Notes under the pieces: generated by a model
What the model saw: only the letters and a program-made list of their open reading frames with translations
Database searches by the model: none
Told to the model about the DNA's origin: nothing
Shown: in pieces, positions 30,473-35,732 of the stretch
Numbering within the stretch: position 1 is the first letter of the stretch
Layout of the letters: each line of letters starts with the position of its first letter
Made by a program: the position numbers and the translations under genes
Virus record (IMG/VR): IMGVR_UViG_3300025468_000005
Coordinates: 1 to 40,198 of that record
Strand: one strand, 5' to 3'
Source: a virus
DNA length: 40,198 nt

Positions 30473-30503
30473 TAGTATCCCAATCTTTCCCAGTGACATA
30501 TCT

Positions 30504-30532
30504 ATTATACTACATTTTATAACAAATGTCAA
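30504..30532 (-). promoter_or_regulatory. Perfect consensus sigma70 promoter on the minus strand
   Basis: Read on the minus strand, TTGACA (30532-30527) is followed by exactly 17 bases and TATAAT (30509-30504). Transcription would begin near 30497 and run leftwards against gp15. It lies in the 78-base gap between gp15 and gp16, a non-coding stretch long enough to hold it. No convincing minus-strand gene lies ahead, so a non-coding antisense RNA is the simplest product. A chance match in AT-rich DNA cannot be excluded, though both hexamers and the spacer are ideal. Confidence 0.6.
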
Positions 30533-30550
30533 CCCACTAGGAACTAAATT

Positions 30551-30898
30551 ATGAAAACTGAAATAGATGCAGATTATGAGTATGCAAGATCTAAATACTA
30601 CGACATGATCACCAAGAATGATGAAGCAATTGATATGATGATGGAACTGGCAAGAGAACAAGAAGCACCACGTACCTTTGAAGTTCTATCTAATATGATC
30701 AAACAAAACTCTGAGATTGCCGATAGATTAATGGAACTACAAAAGAAGAAAATAGAAGTCATTAAATCTGGTGAACTTGAAACCCCAGCACAATTAACTC
30801 AAAATAATGTTTATATTGGATCTACAACAGATCTACAGAGATTGTTATTAGAGAATGTGAAAGATGTGACTCCAAATGAAATCGATTCAGAAAGTTGA
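30551..30898 (+). CDS. 16: Small terminase subunit gp16
   Basis: 115 residues (T4 gp16 is 164). The protein is helical: DYEYARSKYYDMITKNDEAI then MMELAREQEAPRTFEVLSNM, IKQNSEIADRLMELQKKKIE, and the C-terminal APAQ-like TPAQLTQNNVYIGSTTDLQR. The Pro-Arg-x-x-E-V-L-S-x-x-I-K and NxxVFVGSTxELxK-like parts are typical of gp16. It forms rings that recognise DNA and regulate gp17 ATPase and nuclease activity. Its 3' end overlaps the large terminase start by 23 bases, consistent with coupled synthesis. Confidence 0.9.
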   Translation: MKTEIDADYEYARSKYYDMITKNDEAIDMMMELAREQEAPRTFEVLSNMIKQNSEIADRLMELQKKKIEVIKSGELETPAQLTQNNVYIGSTTDLQRLLLENVKDVTPNEIDSES

Positions 30899-31253
30899 AA
30901 CAAAGGGGTATCTTGGTAATCCCCTTGTCAAAAAAGATGGTATAAATCAGAACTGGACTCAAGAAGAGATTGATGAATACTCAAAGTGTATGAATGATCC
31001 TGCATACTTTGCTAGAACTTATCTAAAAGTTATTCATCTTGATAGAGGTTTAGTTCCATTCGATCTATACGATTATCAAGAAAATATGTTCGATCACTTC
31101 AATAATAATAGATTCTCTATTGTTCTTGCTTGTAGACAATCTGGTAAATGTCAAACTTTTAATTCTTATATATATATTAGGAACAAGAAAACTAATATAG
31201 AAGAACGTATAAGCATTGGAGATTTTCATGAAAGAATTAAAAGAAATATGTAA
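30876..31253 (+). CDS. 17: Large terminase gp17, N-terminal fragment fused to N-intein
   Basis: 125 residues. Residues 1-91 are the start of the gp17 ATPase domain: DPAYFARTYLKVIHLDRGLV, PFDLYDYQENMFDHF and FSIVLACRQSGK, which is the Walker A motif cut off after its lysine. Residue 92 is Cys, followed by a 34-residue N-intein ending in a stop at 31251-31253. The missing part of the P-loop is supplied by the gene at 32255, whose extein begins with Ser, so the joined motif reads CRQSGKS as in other gp17 proteins (T4 has SRQLGKT). The start codon overlaps gp16. The fragment alone cannot hydrolyse ATP. Confidence 0.9.
   Translation: MKSIQKVETKGYLGNPLVKKDGINQNWTQEEIDEYSKCMNDPAYFARTYLKVIHLDRGLVPFDLYDYQENMFDHFNNNRFSIVLACRQSGKCQTFNSYIYIRNKKTNIEERISIGDFHERIKRNM
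31149..31250 (+). other. N-terminal half of an atypical split intein (IntN, 34 residues)
   Basis: It starts with the splice nucleophile Cys1 immediately after Walker A lysine and reads CQTFNSYIYIRNK ... RISIGDFHERIKRNM, fitting intein block A (Cys, then two short beta strands ending in an Ile-x-x-Gly-Asp-like turn). Block B is not here; it is in the C-half. A 34-residue N-half is far shorter than in classical split inteins such as gp41-1 or DnaE (about 90-100) and resembles the AceL-TerL type. Net charge is positive. Confidence 0.85.
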
Positions 31254-32274
31254 CAGAATAATTAAAGAATCTAACAACAAAGGTAGATCTAAACATGTGT
31301 TATATAAAGATAACATAGAAAATATCATATCCACGCATGATATGATATTTGAGAATATGAAGAATAAACCTATAGGTCAAAAGATCTCAAGATTATATAA
31401 TGAATTGGAAAGACCTGATATTGGTGGTGTTACTTGTAGAATATGTAATATATATTACAGAGATGATATAAGACAACATATAATAAATTCCCATAATGTT
31501 ACTATAAGTGAATATAAGGATAGATATGATTCTGCTGCTATATTGTCTGATAAAGTATTAACTAAATATTCTGATAGAATGTTAGGTAGTAAGAATCCAG
31601 CATTTCAGCATGGAGGGAGATTAAGTCCATTTTCAAATAAGTTTGTGAAATATCAAGATGGTTCTGTTGATTATTCAATTGAAGATGTTGTTAAAAAGAA
31701 GATGCAAAGTGTTAAAGATAATCCACAAAATCAACACACAAATATTGAATTTTATTTAGCACAAGGTTTATCAATAGATGATGCTAAGGCAGCACTATCA
31801 GAAAGGCAATCGACATTCTCACTAAAATCGTGTATTGAAAAATATGGAGAAGAAGCGGGAAAATTAAGATGGCAACAAAGACAAGATGTGTGGCAAGAAA
31901 CCCTTAAAGATAAGACACCTGAAGAAATTGATATTATTAATCAAAAGAAAGGTACAGGAAGAATGAACCAATTGTTTAACAGGAAACCTGAGATGAAAAA
32001 TATACCAGGTATATTATATCTTATTAAATTTTATAATGAAGATATAGTATTTTGGAAGGTTGGTATAACATCACGTACAATAAAAGAACGTTTTGGTTCA
32101 ATGAATAAATATAATCTTAATATGGATATTATTACTGAAAATAAAAATATGACATTCTATGAGTGTTTTAAAGCAGAACAATCTATATTAAATTTGCATA
32201 AAGATATAAGAATTAACGTGAACTATAATGGATTTAAAACCACAGAGGCATTTGATGAACCAATTACTATCTGA
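31228..32274 (+). CDS. Homing-endonuclease-like protein nested in the split terminase (zinc finger + GIY-YIG-like)
   Basis: 348 residues from ATG 31228, preceded by GGAG (31218-31221) six bases away; an in-frame TTG at 31216 is less likely. Residues 70-89 form a Cys2-His2 finger (TCRICNIYYRDDIRQHIINS H, ligands Cys70, Cys73, His84, His89). Then comes GSKNPAFQHGGRLSPFSNKF (120-139) and FSLKSCIEKYGEEAGKLRW (197-215), segments shared by many phage homing endonucleases. The C-terminus (GILYLIKF at 261, WKVGITSRTIKERFG at 276, Glu317) resembles a GIY-YIG/T5orf172 nuclease. It likely cuts intein-less terminase genes, spreading the element. It overlaps both terminase fragments, in a third frame. Confidence 0.8.
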   Translation: MKELKEICNRIIKESNNKGRSKHVLYKDNIENIISTHDMIFENMKNKPIGQKISRLYNELERPDIGGVTCRICNIYYRDDIRQHIINSHNVTISEYKDRYDSAAILSDKVLTKYSDRMLGSKNPAFQHGGRLSPFSNKFVKYQDGSVDYSIEDVVKKKMQSVKDNPQNQHTNIEFYLAQGLSIDDAKAALSERQSTFSLKSCIEKYGEEAGKLRWQQRQDVWQETLKDKTPEEIDIINQKKGTGRMNQLFNRKPEMKNIPGILYLIKFYNEDIVFWKVGITSRTIKERFGSMNKYNLNMDIITENKNMTFYECFKAEQSILNLHKDIRINVNYNGFKTTEAFDEPITI

Positions 32275-32626
32275 TAAAACTGAAAGAAAGTTTATTGAAG
32301 AATTTGATGTGAGTGATTATGAAATTCTTACAGAGGATGGATATAAGGATATAACATCTAGTAAGAAAACTATTGAATATGATGTGTGGAAATTGGTTAC
32401 AGAAAATGGACATTTCTTAGAGTGTGCGGATACACACATCGTTATAGATTCATTTGGTAATGAAGTTTATGCCAAAGATTCTCTAGGGGTTATGATACAA
32501 ACTATTGAGGGTAATAGTATAGTATCTTCAGTGGTTAAACCAGATTATCTTAAAGAACATATGTATGATCTGTCAATAGATTCGGATAATCATACATTTT
32601 ATTCTAATGGTATATTAAGTCATAAT
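32255..32626 (+). other. C-terminal half of the split intein (IntC, ~124 residues)
   Basis: Block B is YDVWKLVTENGHFLECADTHIV with the catalytic His61 (the usual Thr three residues earlier is Ala58). Blocks F and G are YDLSIDSDNHTFYSNGILSH then Asn124, with penultimate His123 and block F His113. The +1 residue is Ser. No endonuclease domain remains inside. The half is strongly acidic (about 24 Asp/Glu against 10 Lys/Arg), opposite to the basic N-half. Confidence 0.85.
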
Positions 32627-33952
32627 AGTATATCATCTGTTGCATATCTGCTATGGTATGCTATATTCAATCCAGAAAAAGTGATCGCAATACTAGCAAA
32701 CAAAGGTGCCACTGCTCGTGAAATGTTGTCACGTGTCACCCTAATGTTAGAAAACTTACCATTCTTCTTACAACCAGGATGTAAAACCCTAAATAAAGGT
32801 TCAATAGAATTCTCTAATAACTCTAAGATTGTTGCTGCCGCAACTTCTGGCTCTTCTATTCGTGGTTTATCTGTATCATTATTGTTCTTGGATGAGTTTG
32901 CTTTCATTGAGAATGATGCTACATTTTATACATCAACTTATCCTGTTGTATCTTCTGGTACATCTACAAGAATTATTATCACCTCAACCGCTAATGGTAT
33001 TGGTAATGTATTCTATAAGTTATGGGAAGGTGCTAATCAAAAGACTAACGACTTTAAACCATTCAGGGTAGATTGGCAAGATGTTCCTGGACGTGATGAA
33101 GAATGGAAAAGACAAACTATTGCTAACACTTCTGAATTGCAATTTACCCAAGAATTTGGTAACTCATTTATTGGTGGTTCTGATACACTGGTAACACCAG
33201 AATGTTTATTAACACTTAATGCGATTGATCCAATAAAGGAAACTTATAATCTAAGAGTTTATAAAGATCCAGAACATGGTCATGAGTATATGATGTTCGT
33301 TGATATTGCTAAAGGTCGTGGTCAAGATTATTCTACATTTAATATTATTGATATAACATCATCACCTTTTGAACAAGTTTGTGTTTTCCAAGATAATAAT
33401 ATATCTCCTTTATTATATCCTGATGTATTATATAAATATGCTATGTTATATAATGAGGCATATATAATAGTAGAATCAAATGATCAAGGTTCTATTGTTT
33501 GTAATGGATTATATTATGAACTAGAATATGAAAATGTTTATGTTGAATCGATAATTAAAAGCAATTCTATTGGTGTTACAATGACCAAGAAGATCAAAAG
33601 AATTGGTACATCTAATATGAAAGATATTATTGAGCAGAATAAATTAAAGATAAATGATGCTAATACAATTATTGAGTTATCTACTTTTATATCACGAGGT
33701 TCTTCTTTTGAGGCATCACGAGGAAACCATGATGATTTAGTAATGAACCTTGTTCTGTTTGCTTGGTTCACTTCCACACCATTCTTTGGTGAAATGACTG
33801 ATATAAATATTAAGAATTTATTATATTCAGAGAAAGTAAGAGCAATGGAAGATGATATTGTTCCTGTAGGCATTTTTGATGATGGTAGAGAAGATGCTTT
33901 TACAGTAGAAGATGGGGTACAATGGGAAACTATAAATACTGGTATGTTCTAA
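32255..33952 (+). CDS. 17: Large terminase gp17, C-intein fused to C-terminal ATPase and nuclease domains
   Basis: 565 residues from ATG 32255, chosen because GAGG lies six bases upstream; ATG 32228 would add nine residues. Residues 1-124 are the C-intein ending in His-Asn. The extein begins with Ser125 and runs 441 residues: LLFLDEFAFIE (Walker B, about 205), RIIITSTANG (coupling motif), YMMFVDIAKGRGQDYSTF (first nuclease Asp), YIIVESNDQG and SRGNHDDLVMNLVLFAW (further metal-binding acids of the RNase H-like nuclease). Joined to residues 1-91 of the first fragment it gives about 532 residues, right for gp17. It drives ATP-dependent DNA packaging and headful cutting. Confidence 0.9.
   Translation: MNQLLSDKTERKFIEEFDVSDYEILTEDGYKDITSSKKTIEYDVWKLVTENGHFLECADTHIVIDSFGNEVYAKDSLGVMIQTIEGNSIVSSVVKPDYLKEHMYDLSIDSDNHTFYSNGILSHNSISSVAYLLWYAIFNPEKVIAILANKGATAREMLSRVTLMLENLPFFLQPGCKTLNKGSIEFSNNSKIVAAATSGSSIRGLSVSLLFLDEFAFIENDATFYTSTYPVVSSGTSTRIIITSTANGIGNVFYKLWEGANQKTNDFKPFRVDWQDVPGRDEEWKRQTIANTSELQFTQEFGNSFIGGSDTLVTPECLLTLNAIDPIKETYNLRVYKDPEHGHEYMMFVDIAKGRGQDYSTFNIIDITSSPFEQVCVFQDNNISPLLYPDVLYKYAMLYNEAYIIVESNDQGSIVCNGLYYELEYENVYVESIIKSNSIGVTMTKKIKRIGTSNMKDIIEQNKLKINDANTIIELSTFISRGSSFEASRGNHDDLVMNLVLFAWFTSTPFFGEMTDINIKNLLYSEKVRAMEDDIVPVGIFDDGREDAFTVEDGVQWETINTGMF
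33931..33938 (+). promoter_or_regulatory. TATAAATA box in the end of the terminase gene
   Basis: Exact late box in the last codons of gp17, 33 bases before a second identical box. It may add to late transcription of the sheath gene or may be a chance AT-rich codon string. Confidence 0.35.
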
Positions 33953-33963
33953 ATATTAAATAG

Positions 33964-33971
33964 TATAAATA
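33964..33971 (+). promoter_or_regulatory. Late promoter box TATAAATA before the tail sheath gene
   Basis: Exact box 11 bases after the gp17 stop and 81 bases before the gp18 ATG, giving the longest leader in the window; the leader contains an AT hairpin and the strong ribosome site GGAGAGGAAA (34038-34047). Fits a highly expressed structural gene. Confidence 0.75.
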
Positions 33972-34010
33972 GTATTGAATGAGTAATAATCTTATTATGA
34001 TTCTTATTAC

Positions 34011-34031
34011 ATTATAATCATTTTTTATAAT
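34011..34031 (+). promoter_or_regulatory. AT-rich hairpin in the gp18 leader
   Basis: ATTATAA (34011-34017) and TTATAAT (34025-34031) form a perfect 7-bp stem with a 7-base loop, followed by CTTTTT and then the ribosome site. Stability is low because there are no G-C pairs. It could be a weak terminator for terminase read-through or a leader element. Confidence 0.35.
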
Positions 34032-34052
34032 CTTTTTGGAGAGGAAACAAAT

Positions 34053-35732
34053 ATGGGCTTTCAAGTTTCACCTGGCGTTCAGGTAAAAGAAATAGACCTA
34101 ACAAATGTTGTTCCCGCGATATCTACCTCTATTGGTGGTTTTGCTGGTGCATTCAATTGGGGTCCCGTAAACGAAATTCGGATGGTAGGTTCAGAATCAG
34201 AACTTGCCTCAACCTTCGGTATACCCGATGATAATACAGCACCTTACTTCTTATCAGCAGCTGCTTTCCTGCAATATGGAAGAGCTCTTAAAGTTGTTCG
34301 TACCGCTACTACTAATTTAAACGCGACAAGTTCTGGTGTTGGTCAGTTAATCATGAATCGTGATGATTATGAGGAAGCGACTGTAACAGATTCTTGGGTT
34401 GCGAAATATCCAGGCATATTAGGAAACTCTTTAAAAGTTTCTATTTGTCCTGCTGATACTACTGTATTTGCTAGTTGGGCATATGCAGACAACTTTGATT
34501 CTGCACCAAGTACTTCAACTTATGCTGCTGCACATTCTTCTAGTAATGATGAAATGCATATAGCAATAATCGATGAAGATGGTTCTTGGACAGGTCTTGC
34601 TGGTTCTGTTCTAGAAACATTTCCATTTGTATCTCAAGCATCTGATGCTAAAGCAAGTGATGGAACTTCTAGTTACTACAAAGATGTATTAAACGGAAAC
34701 TCTAATTATGTTTGGTTTGGTGATCATGACGCTACATTAGTAAATGCTGGTGGTCTTACTTCTGCTGTTGCAGATTTTAATGCTACTGTTATTGCTGCTG
34801 AAGTTTCTGATTCGTTTTCTGGTGGTACTGATGATAATTTACCTACACTTGGTGAACTTCAAACTGGATTTGATTTTTTCTCTGATGCAGATACTGTTGA
34901 TGTAAATTTAATATTCTCTGTTCCTGGTGTTGATGGTGGTGAAGATGTTACATTTGCTAATTACCTTATTGCATTAGCAGAAGCACGTAAAGATGTTGTA
35001 GCATTCATTTCTCCTCCTATTCAAGATACTGTTGGTACTTCTACTCCTGCAACTGATGTAAAAACATTTGCTGATCAGGTAAGTTCAAGTTCTTATGCTG
35101 TTATAGATTCAACCGCATTAAAAGTATACGATAAATATAATGATGTATACCGTTGGATTCCTGCTGCTGGTGTTATGGCTGGTTTATGTGCTAACACAGA
35201 TACAGTTGCAGATCCTTGGTTCTCTCCTGCTGGTTATACACGTGGTCAAGTATTAGGTGTCACTAAAATTGCTTTTAACCCTAAGCAAGCAGATCGTGAT
35301 ACACTTCACAAAGCAAGAATCAATCCAATTGTTTCTTTTCCTGGTCAAGGTACACTTCTTTATGGTGATAAAACTGCTCAAGCAAAACCATCTGCTTTTG
35401 ATCGTATTAATGTCCGTAGATTGTTCATCGTTTTAGAAAAAGCAATTGCTACCGCAGCTAAATATCAATTGTTTGAACTGAATGACGAATTTACAAGAGC
35501 AATGTTCCGTAACATGGTTGAACCATTCTTACGTGACGTAAAGGGTCGTAGGGGTATTACTGACTTCGCAGTTATCTGTGATGAAACTAATAATACCGGA
35601 GAAATTATAGGATCTAATCAGTTTGTTGCTGATATCTATATTAAACCTGCTCGTTCAATCAACTTCATTACTTTGAATTTTATCGCCACTCGTACTGGTG
35701 TTCAATTCGCAGAAATTATCGGTCAAAAATAA
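34053..35732 (+). CDS. 18: Tail sheath protein gp18
   Basis: 559 residues (T4 gp18 is 659). N-terminal FQVSPGVQVKEIDLTNVVPA, STSIGGFAGAFNWGPVNEIR and AAAFLQYGRALKVVRT are the classic gp18 start. The C-terminal core has RWIPAAGVMAGLCANTDTVA, DPWFSPAGYTRGQVLGVTKI, INPIVSFPGQGTLLYGDKTA, FDRINVRRLFIVLEKAIATA and YIKPARSINFITLNFIATRT, the conserved sheath interface of contractile tails. The central part (about 190-300) is the variable outer domain, shorter than in T4. The protein forms the contractile tube around gp19. It has its own late promoter and strong ribosome site. Confidence 0.96.
   Translation: MGFQVSPGVQVKEIDLTNVVPAISTSIGGFAGAFNWGPVNEIRMVGSESELASTFGIPDDNTAPYFLSAAAFLQYGRALKVVRTATTNLNATSSGVGQLIMNRDDYEEATVTDSWVAKYPGILGNSLKVSICPADTTVFASWAYADNFDSAPSTSTYAAAHSSSNDEMHIAIIDEDGSWTGLAGSVLETFPFVSQASDAKASDGTSSYYKDVLNGNSNYVWFGDHDATLVNAGGLTSAVADFNATVIAAEVSDSFSGGTDDNLPTLGELQTGFDFFSDADTVDVNLIFSVPGVDGGEDVTFANYLIALAEARKDVVAFISPPIQDTVGTSTPATDVKTFADQVSSSSYAVIDSTALKVYDKYNDVYRWIPAAGVMAGLCANTDTVADPWFSPAGYTRGQVLGVTKIAFNPKQADRDTLHKARINPIVSFPGQGTLLYGDKTAQAKPSAFDRINVRRLFIVLEKAIATAAKYQLFELNDEFTRAMFRNMVEPFLRDVKGRRGITDFAVICDETNNTGEIIGSNQFVADIYIKPARSINFITLNFIATRTGVQFAEIIGQK

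Follow-up and report, generated by a model that had tools for sequence, protein, structure and literature searches.

The 40,198-base virus record IMGVR_UViG_3300025468_000005, analysed here over its full length and called the window, carries a structural module of T4-like myovirus type, with baseplate and tail genes, adaptor, small terminase subunit (TerS), terL region, tail sheath, portal and scaffold. The gene for the large terminase subunit (TerL, gp17, the DNA-packaging motor) is broken into two pieces, and a homing-endonuclease (HE) gene lies between them. The locus is very probably the fractured terL of a myovirus that is T4-like and of cyanophage type; its two products would be joined by a naturally split class 1 intein, divided at position S2, after the first helix. 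An atypically split TerL intein with a nested HE is the best reading of the locus, and each check made at the sequence level favoured it.

The initial annotation, made from the sequence alone, had described gp17 as encoded in two pieces, the first ending in a 34-residue segment that starts with Cys, the second beginning with about 124 residues that contain intein blocks B, F and G and end in His-Asn before Ser, with a 348-residue endonuclease-like gene in the gap. When the coordinates were re-derived, the same arrangement was obtained throughout (Table 1). The N-half open reading frame (ORF; 30876-31253) encodes 125 residues, 91 of TerL and 34 of the N-terminal intein half (Int-N), the latter starting with Cys at 31149 and ending after the segment IGDFHERIKRN. 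The C-half ORF (32255-33952) starts with the ATG at 32255 and encodes the 124-residue C-terminal intein half (Int-C), which ends in GILSHN, and then TerL from SISS. Each of the two ORFs has a start and a stop of its own, as in naturally split inteins, and PHROG terminase profiles matched both TerL pieces. Splicing would yield a TerL of 91+441=532 residues, and a search of the whole record found a single terL. The HE ORF (31228-32274) fills the gap. It starts with the ATG at 31228, is read in the +1 frame with respect to the N-half, and shares 26 nt with that half and 20 nt with the C-half.

A search of both intein halves against known inteins had been proposed in the initial annotation. The C-half matched the NCBIfam model intein_Cterm (TIGR01443) at 23.3 bits, above the curated cut-off of 15.6, and its sequence matched the solved inteins CatC, gp41-1 and VidaL. 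The structure model of Int-C (predicted local distance difference test, pLDDT, 89) has the Hint fold of class 1 inteins. The 47 PDB matches of this model at E<=0.001 were all inteins or intein-like Hint domains, the best being VidaL (6vgv, TM 0.76, 29% identity), followed by gp41-1 and Cat. The residues expected of a class 1 intein are present in the window (Cys1, His61, Asp105, His113, His123, Asn124 and Ser+1); in an Int-C alignment of 36 relatives His61, Asp105, Ser122, His123 and Asn124 were invariant, and His113 nearly so. For Int-N, dN/dS was 0.095/0.63 in the comparison with relative L009, which indicates purifying selection on this short half; purifying selection was likewise seen on Int-C and the HE. 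Taken together, the gene anatomy, the conserved residues and the predicted Hint fold suggest that the two halves would splice in trans.

The intein is inserted in the Walker A motif, at RQSGK|S. In 71 homologous, intein-less terL loci (67-77% identity in the C-extein) the gene is contiguous exactly at residue 91|92, and no residue is gained or lost when the window's pieces are joined; excision of both intein pieces would therefore restore the TerL sequence of the family. Such precise gain or loss relative to intein-less homologues is that expected of a class 1 intein.

Several observations weigh against the interpretation given above. The solved inteins are matched weakly in sequence (E 1e-4 to 2e-3), and block B has Ala (C-A-D-T-H) in place of the usual Thr. 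The HE scored only modestly over the T5orf172 cut-off (24 bits against a curated 20), and its structure was modelled poorly (pLDDT 68), with no PDB match.

Other explanations of the split were considered. TerL might function as two unligated polypeptides, like a genes-in-pieces ribonucleotide reductase, a reading to which the intact extein pieces lend something, as does the retention of most domains by the larger piece. The break, however, falls inside the P-loop and parts the Walker A Lys from the Ser, so that the motor would be expected to work only after ligation of the halves; an unligated ATPase seems unlikely, and conservation of the intein's catalytic residues would not be expected without splicing. 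We regard two-piece function as very improbable. That terL is split by a self-splicing RNA intron encoding an HE, as reported for the terL of phage ICP1 (PMC10448857), is highly improbable. T5orf172 HEs do adjoin the spliced ICP1 terL, and the annotators of Campylobacter phage F379 called its corresponding HE intron-associated, but no Rfam family matched across positions 30500-34100, even at E<=1, and the RNA intron was rejected for this reason. Further, the 34 and 124 intein residues extend the TerL frames and carry splicing residues and a Hint fold, and members of the intein family are single continuous ORFs in Ackermannviridae and in phage CP220. No more credible than the intron is a decayed, non-splicing element in a phage that is defective or relies on another terminase: with only a 40 kb fragment of the genome in the record, a further TerL could lie elsewhere, but the record itself holds a single TerL, Int-N, Int-C and HE are all under purifying selection, and an identical haplotype recurs across several datasets. 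Assembly or sequencing errors splitting one continuous gp17 frame, the objection that the initial annotation had itself raised, are extremely improbable and were rejected. Nothing was found in favour of such errors: seven other IMG/VR contigs, from differently numbered metagenome datasets whose samples are not necessarily fully independent, are 100% identical to the window over 4.3-12.4 kb, divergent relatives with 51-80% Int-C identity are broken identically, and the three genes recur in the annotated isolate F379. From the identical contigs and the 71 exactly contiguous homologues it follows that the terL break is no assembly error.

We turn to the nested nuclease. In the HE the stretch LYLIKF..KVGIT..TIKERF..FKAEQ is recognisable, and the protein matched T5orf172, a domain of the GIY-YIG superfamily, and not DUF559/MTES_1575, the Vsr-like (EDxHD) domains that are usually cited for fractured genes. 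DUF559 was matched by the HEs of relatives L012, L137, L139 and L186. The motifs G..NP.YQHGG..SPFS and RQ.TFSL..CIEKYG.E.G in the middle of the window's HE are also present in relatives with a Vsr-like (DUF559/MTES_1575) C-terminal domain. Because this mid-protein module is common to both HE types, one module occurs with either of two nuclease domains at a single intein site, and the comparison indicates that the nuclease type has been exchanged on a conserved module within the TerL intein family. When relatives of the window's HE were sought in viral contigs, only the window haplotype was found; more distant GIY-YIG-type HE relatives were recovered via the intein instead. T5orf172 HEs are common phage HEs (PMC10448857). 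Caulobacter phage Cr30 (L107, 2842-3864) has a relative of the HE module as a free-standing gene, immediately upstream of a terL that lacks an intein.

The family at the RQxGK|[ST] Walker A site was found in several states. The intein is continuous and without HE in Ackermannviridae, e.g. Kuja and VAP7/BX-1. It is split without HE in L014 and Delftia phage PhiW-14, and split with an HE scar in L009/L015, where a 143-codon ORF retains the HE ends, and in L010/L011, where a remnant of about 30 codons is left. It is split with a GIY-YIG-type HE in the window, L013, L175 and L131, and split with a Vsr-like HE in L012, L127, L137, L157 and others. Among 60 loci counted after removal of near-copies, 26 are split, with an Int-N of 30-55 residues, 9 are continuous, and 25 showed no N-half in the available stretch or with the motif used. 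The initial annotation had called the short N-half rare; this is so among characterised inteins, but within the TerL family a short Int-N is usual. Int-C was matched by 351 isolate phage records, and cultured, infective phages carry the family in split form, both without HE (PhiW-14) and with HE (F379). The Campylobacter phages are instructive in this respect: in CP220 (L099, 78-2312) the intein is continuous, with 47 nt between the conserved parts, and in F379 (L098, 873-4219) it is split, with 1159 nt including the HE. Both flanks are 96-97% identical; CP220 and F379 are a near-isogenic pair of cultured phages, continuous versus split with HE. In both, the insertion lies three residues upstream (RQ|SSKS).

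Other breaks in terL were seen among the loci. Escherichia phage kaaroe (L102, 802-3913) has an intein at another site, Walker B (YIDE|C), with TerL-N, Int-N and HE fused in one ORF and Int-C/TerL-C separate; this Int-C was matched by 72 phage records, several of which annotate the overlapping upstream ORF as hypothetical protein or endonuclease. In L194 (1933-5784) TerL is apparently in three pieces, with split inteins at Walker A and Walker B and an HE-like gene at each break; two trans-splicing reactions would therefore be required. Comparison of Vibrio phage VP-1 (L101, 2000-4216) with BX-1 (L110, 2000-4270) showed that the VP-1 TerL ORF turns into a GIY-YIG-like endonuclease after DQEYDC; another terminase-like gene lies downstream, possibly reflecting an insertion at a later TerL site.

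In a further group of relatives the HE is overprinted. L136, L139 (also L138 and L144) and L186 have a single ORF running through TerL-N, Int-N, a linker of about 270-300 codons, Int-C and TerL-C, with a complete HE gene in the +1 frame of the linker; L179 has the same layout across its available part. A fusion of the HE in frame in continuous members was considered and rejected, the HE lying in the +1 frame. Across the HE, the TerL frame has 0 stops in four distinct uncultivated relatives (L136, L139/L138, L179 and L186), against expected means of 15.3, 15.6 and 22.9 for L136, L139 and L186, 14.8 for L138 and 8.1 for L179; in synonymous-codon permutations (5000 trials per locus) 0 stops were never reached. 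The third frame showed no stop depletion, and split relatives of the same type, with the HE in the +1 frame, had about as many stops as expected. The window is not overprinted, with 59 stops in the N frame across the HE. Identity of L136 to L139 is 62% in the HE frame and 30% when the TerL frame is read, indicating that the HE is the conserved protein and that the TerL frame is merely kept open. L142, close to L139, has lost the HE by a deletion that preserves the TerL frame. A different TerL, L192 (3-2642), which bears the same dataset number as L139, has a linker without HE that is almost the same as that of L142, which suggests partial intein transfer between terminases. Besides its overprinted Walker A intein, L179 (1-3445) has a break at LLY|C with a gene of about 300 codons between TerL pieces. 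We put forward, as a proposal that we judge evenly poised, that inteins of the TerL family offer HEs a second nesting site, N-terminal and located at the atypical split point, that some linkers are dual-coding, that fracture of terL frees the HE from the no-stop constraint, and that the atypical split is a by-product of out-of-frame nesting.

The relationships of the inteins do not follow those of their TerLs. Identity to the window is higher for Int-C than for TerL-C: 80% vs 66% in L009, 59% vs 41% in L012 and 51% vs 31% in L014. In the TerL tree, the near relatives with inteins are scattered among intein-less phages, and the approximately unbiased (AU) test rejected a clade of the window and L009 TerLs (p=1.3e-5), also when L010 was added (p=2.8e-4). 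Transfer by homing would be the best explanation of this discordance, against which the scattered distribution could partly reflect repeated loss.

The following working is proposed for the window. Three overlapping, coupled cistrons would be translated, TerL-N/Int-N, HE and Int-C/TerL-C, and Int-N would dock into a preformed Int-C. Cys1 would perform the N-S shift, Ser+1 the transesterification, and cyclisation of the terminal Asn124 would follow, joining Lys91 to Ser92, so that the P-loop would be whole and the motor 532 residues long. The predicted T5orf172/GIY-YIG nuclease may cut intein-less terL alleles near the insertion site in co-infecting phages; given such a cut in an empty allele, repair would copy the cassette.

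Table 1. Features of the terL region. Positions are those of the window, except in the last row, where they are those of the loci named.
Feature	Positions	Strand	Evidence
Terminase small subunit TerS (gp16), directly upstream of terL region	30551..30898	+	phrog_445 E=1.5e-29
TerL N-extein, 91 codons, C-terminal CRQSGK (Walker A)	30876..31148	+	phrog_5989 E=1.3e-20; C-extein contiguous in 71 homologues
Int-N, 34 residues from Cys1, plus stop codon	31149..31253	+	62-85% identity to split relatives L009, L010
GGAG, likely HE ribosome-binding site, within Int-N codons I-G-D-F	31218..31221	+	sequence; motif also precedes HE start in L013, L137, L186
HE gene, 348 aa, overlapping both TerL halves	31228..32274	+	module common with relatives (alignment)
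T5orf172 (GIY-YIG superfamily) domain, HE residues 261-343	32008..32256	+	Pfam PF10544 24 bits, E=5.6e-5; phrog_681 endonuclease E=4e-9
AGAGG, likely C-half ribosome-binding site, within HE 3' end	32244..32248	+	sequence; kept in L009, L010
Int-C, 124 residues: block B (ECADTHI), block F (MYDLSIDSDNHTFY), block G (GILSHN)	32255..32626	+	TIGR01443 above cut-off; Hint fold, VidaL 6vgv TM 0.76
TerL C-extein, 441 residues, Ser+1, remaining ATPase and nuclease domains	32627..33952	+	Terminase_6N E=4e-18, Terminase_6C E=9e-13; T4 gp17 3ezk E=2e-83
Tail sheath gene (gp18), downstream, T4-like order	34053..35732	+	phrog_23 E=1.5e-131
Overprinted TerL-intein ORFs of relatives	L136 2780-5653; L139 2804-5653; L186 2729-5776; L179 1-1182; L138 1-2460		HE in +1 frame

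Precedents exist for split inteins, for TerL inteins split at S2 and for fractured genes that contain HEs, and the window is a variant of such a kind. Dassa et al. in 2009 reportedly described fractured genes in which a split intein is accompanied by a free-standing HE of the Vsr-like (EDxHD) type. The window has that layout, two gene pieces with a split intein at the break and a free-standing HE between them, but the catalytic domain predicted for its HE is T5orf172/GIY-YIG, the Vsr-like type being found in same-site relatives on the common module. The TerL inteins of Ackermannviridae and CP220 lie in the same Walker A region, and their Int-C is roughly 35-45% identical to that of the window; unlike the window, they are one continuous ORF and have no HE. 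The AceL and GOS TerL inteins are split after the first helix, at S2 (PMC13014065), and have Int-N lengths of 25 and 37 residues (PMC11766414). Like them, the window's intein is in TerL, is split and has a short Int-N, and its split, placed by motif, appears to be of this atypical S2 type. As to the kinship with AceL-TerL suggested in the initial annotation, the split position and the fold class agree, Cat (PDB 6dsl, a consensus derived from AceL/GOS TerL) being among the best sequence and fold matches of Int-C, but the sequence match is weak (CatC, E=1.5e-4). VidaL, the best fold match, also has an atypical N-terminal split, but at S1 and with a 16-residue Int-N (PMC13014065). The ShiLan element, in which an HNH HE is concealed out of frame within a phage methylase (PMC11855218), is the sole precedent found for such hidden HEs; it resembles L136, L139, L179 and L186 in having the HE in the other frame of an open insertion, but has no splicing domain or intein, and in the window the host frame is not open across the HE. 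New here are a fractured intein gene with a nuclease of GIY-YIG type, of which no description was found in the literature searched, which left out key papers; the overprinted relatives; and a large Walker-A-site (RQSGK|S/T) family with an HE gene at the atypical S2 split point.

The position of the HE bears on how inteins acquire their nucleases. HE domains of inteins have been said to sit all at one conserved site, C35, their absence elsewhere being puzzling (PMC6801210). The TerL family, by contrast, has its HE gene at the S2 split site, following residue ~34. The intact, split and out-of-frame-HE relatives suggest how intein splits arise, and with the HE at S2, the CP220/F379 pair and the exchange of nucleases on a conserved module, the origin of atypical split inteins becomes directly testable. 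The family also offers many natural inteins with a short Int-N for protein labelling.

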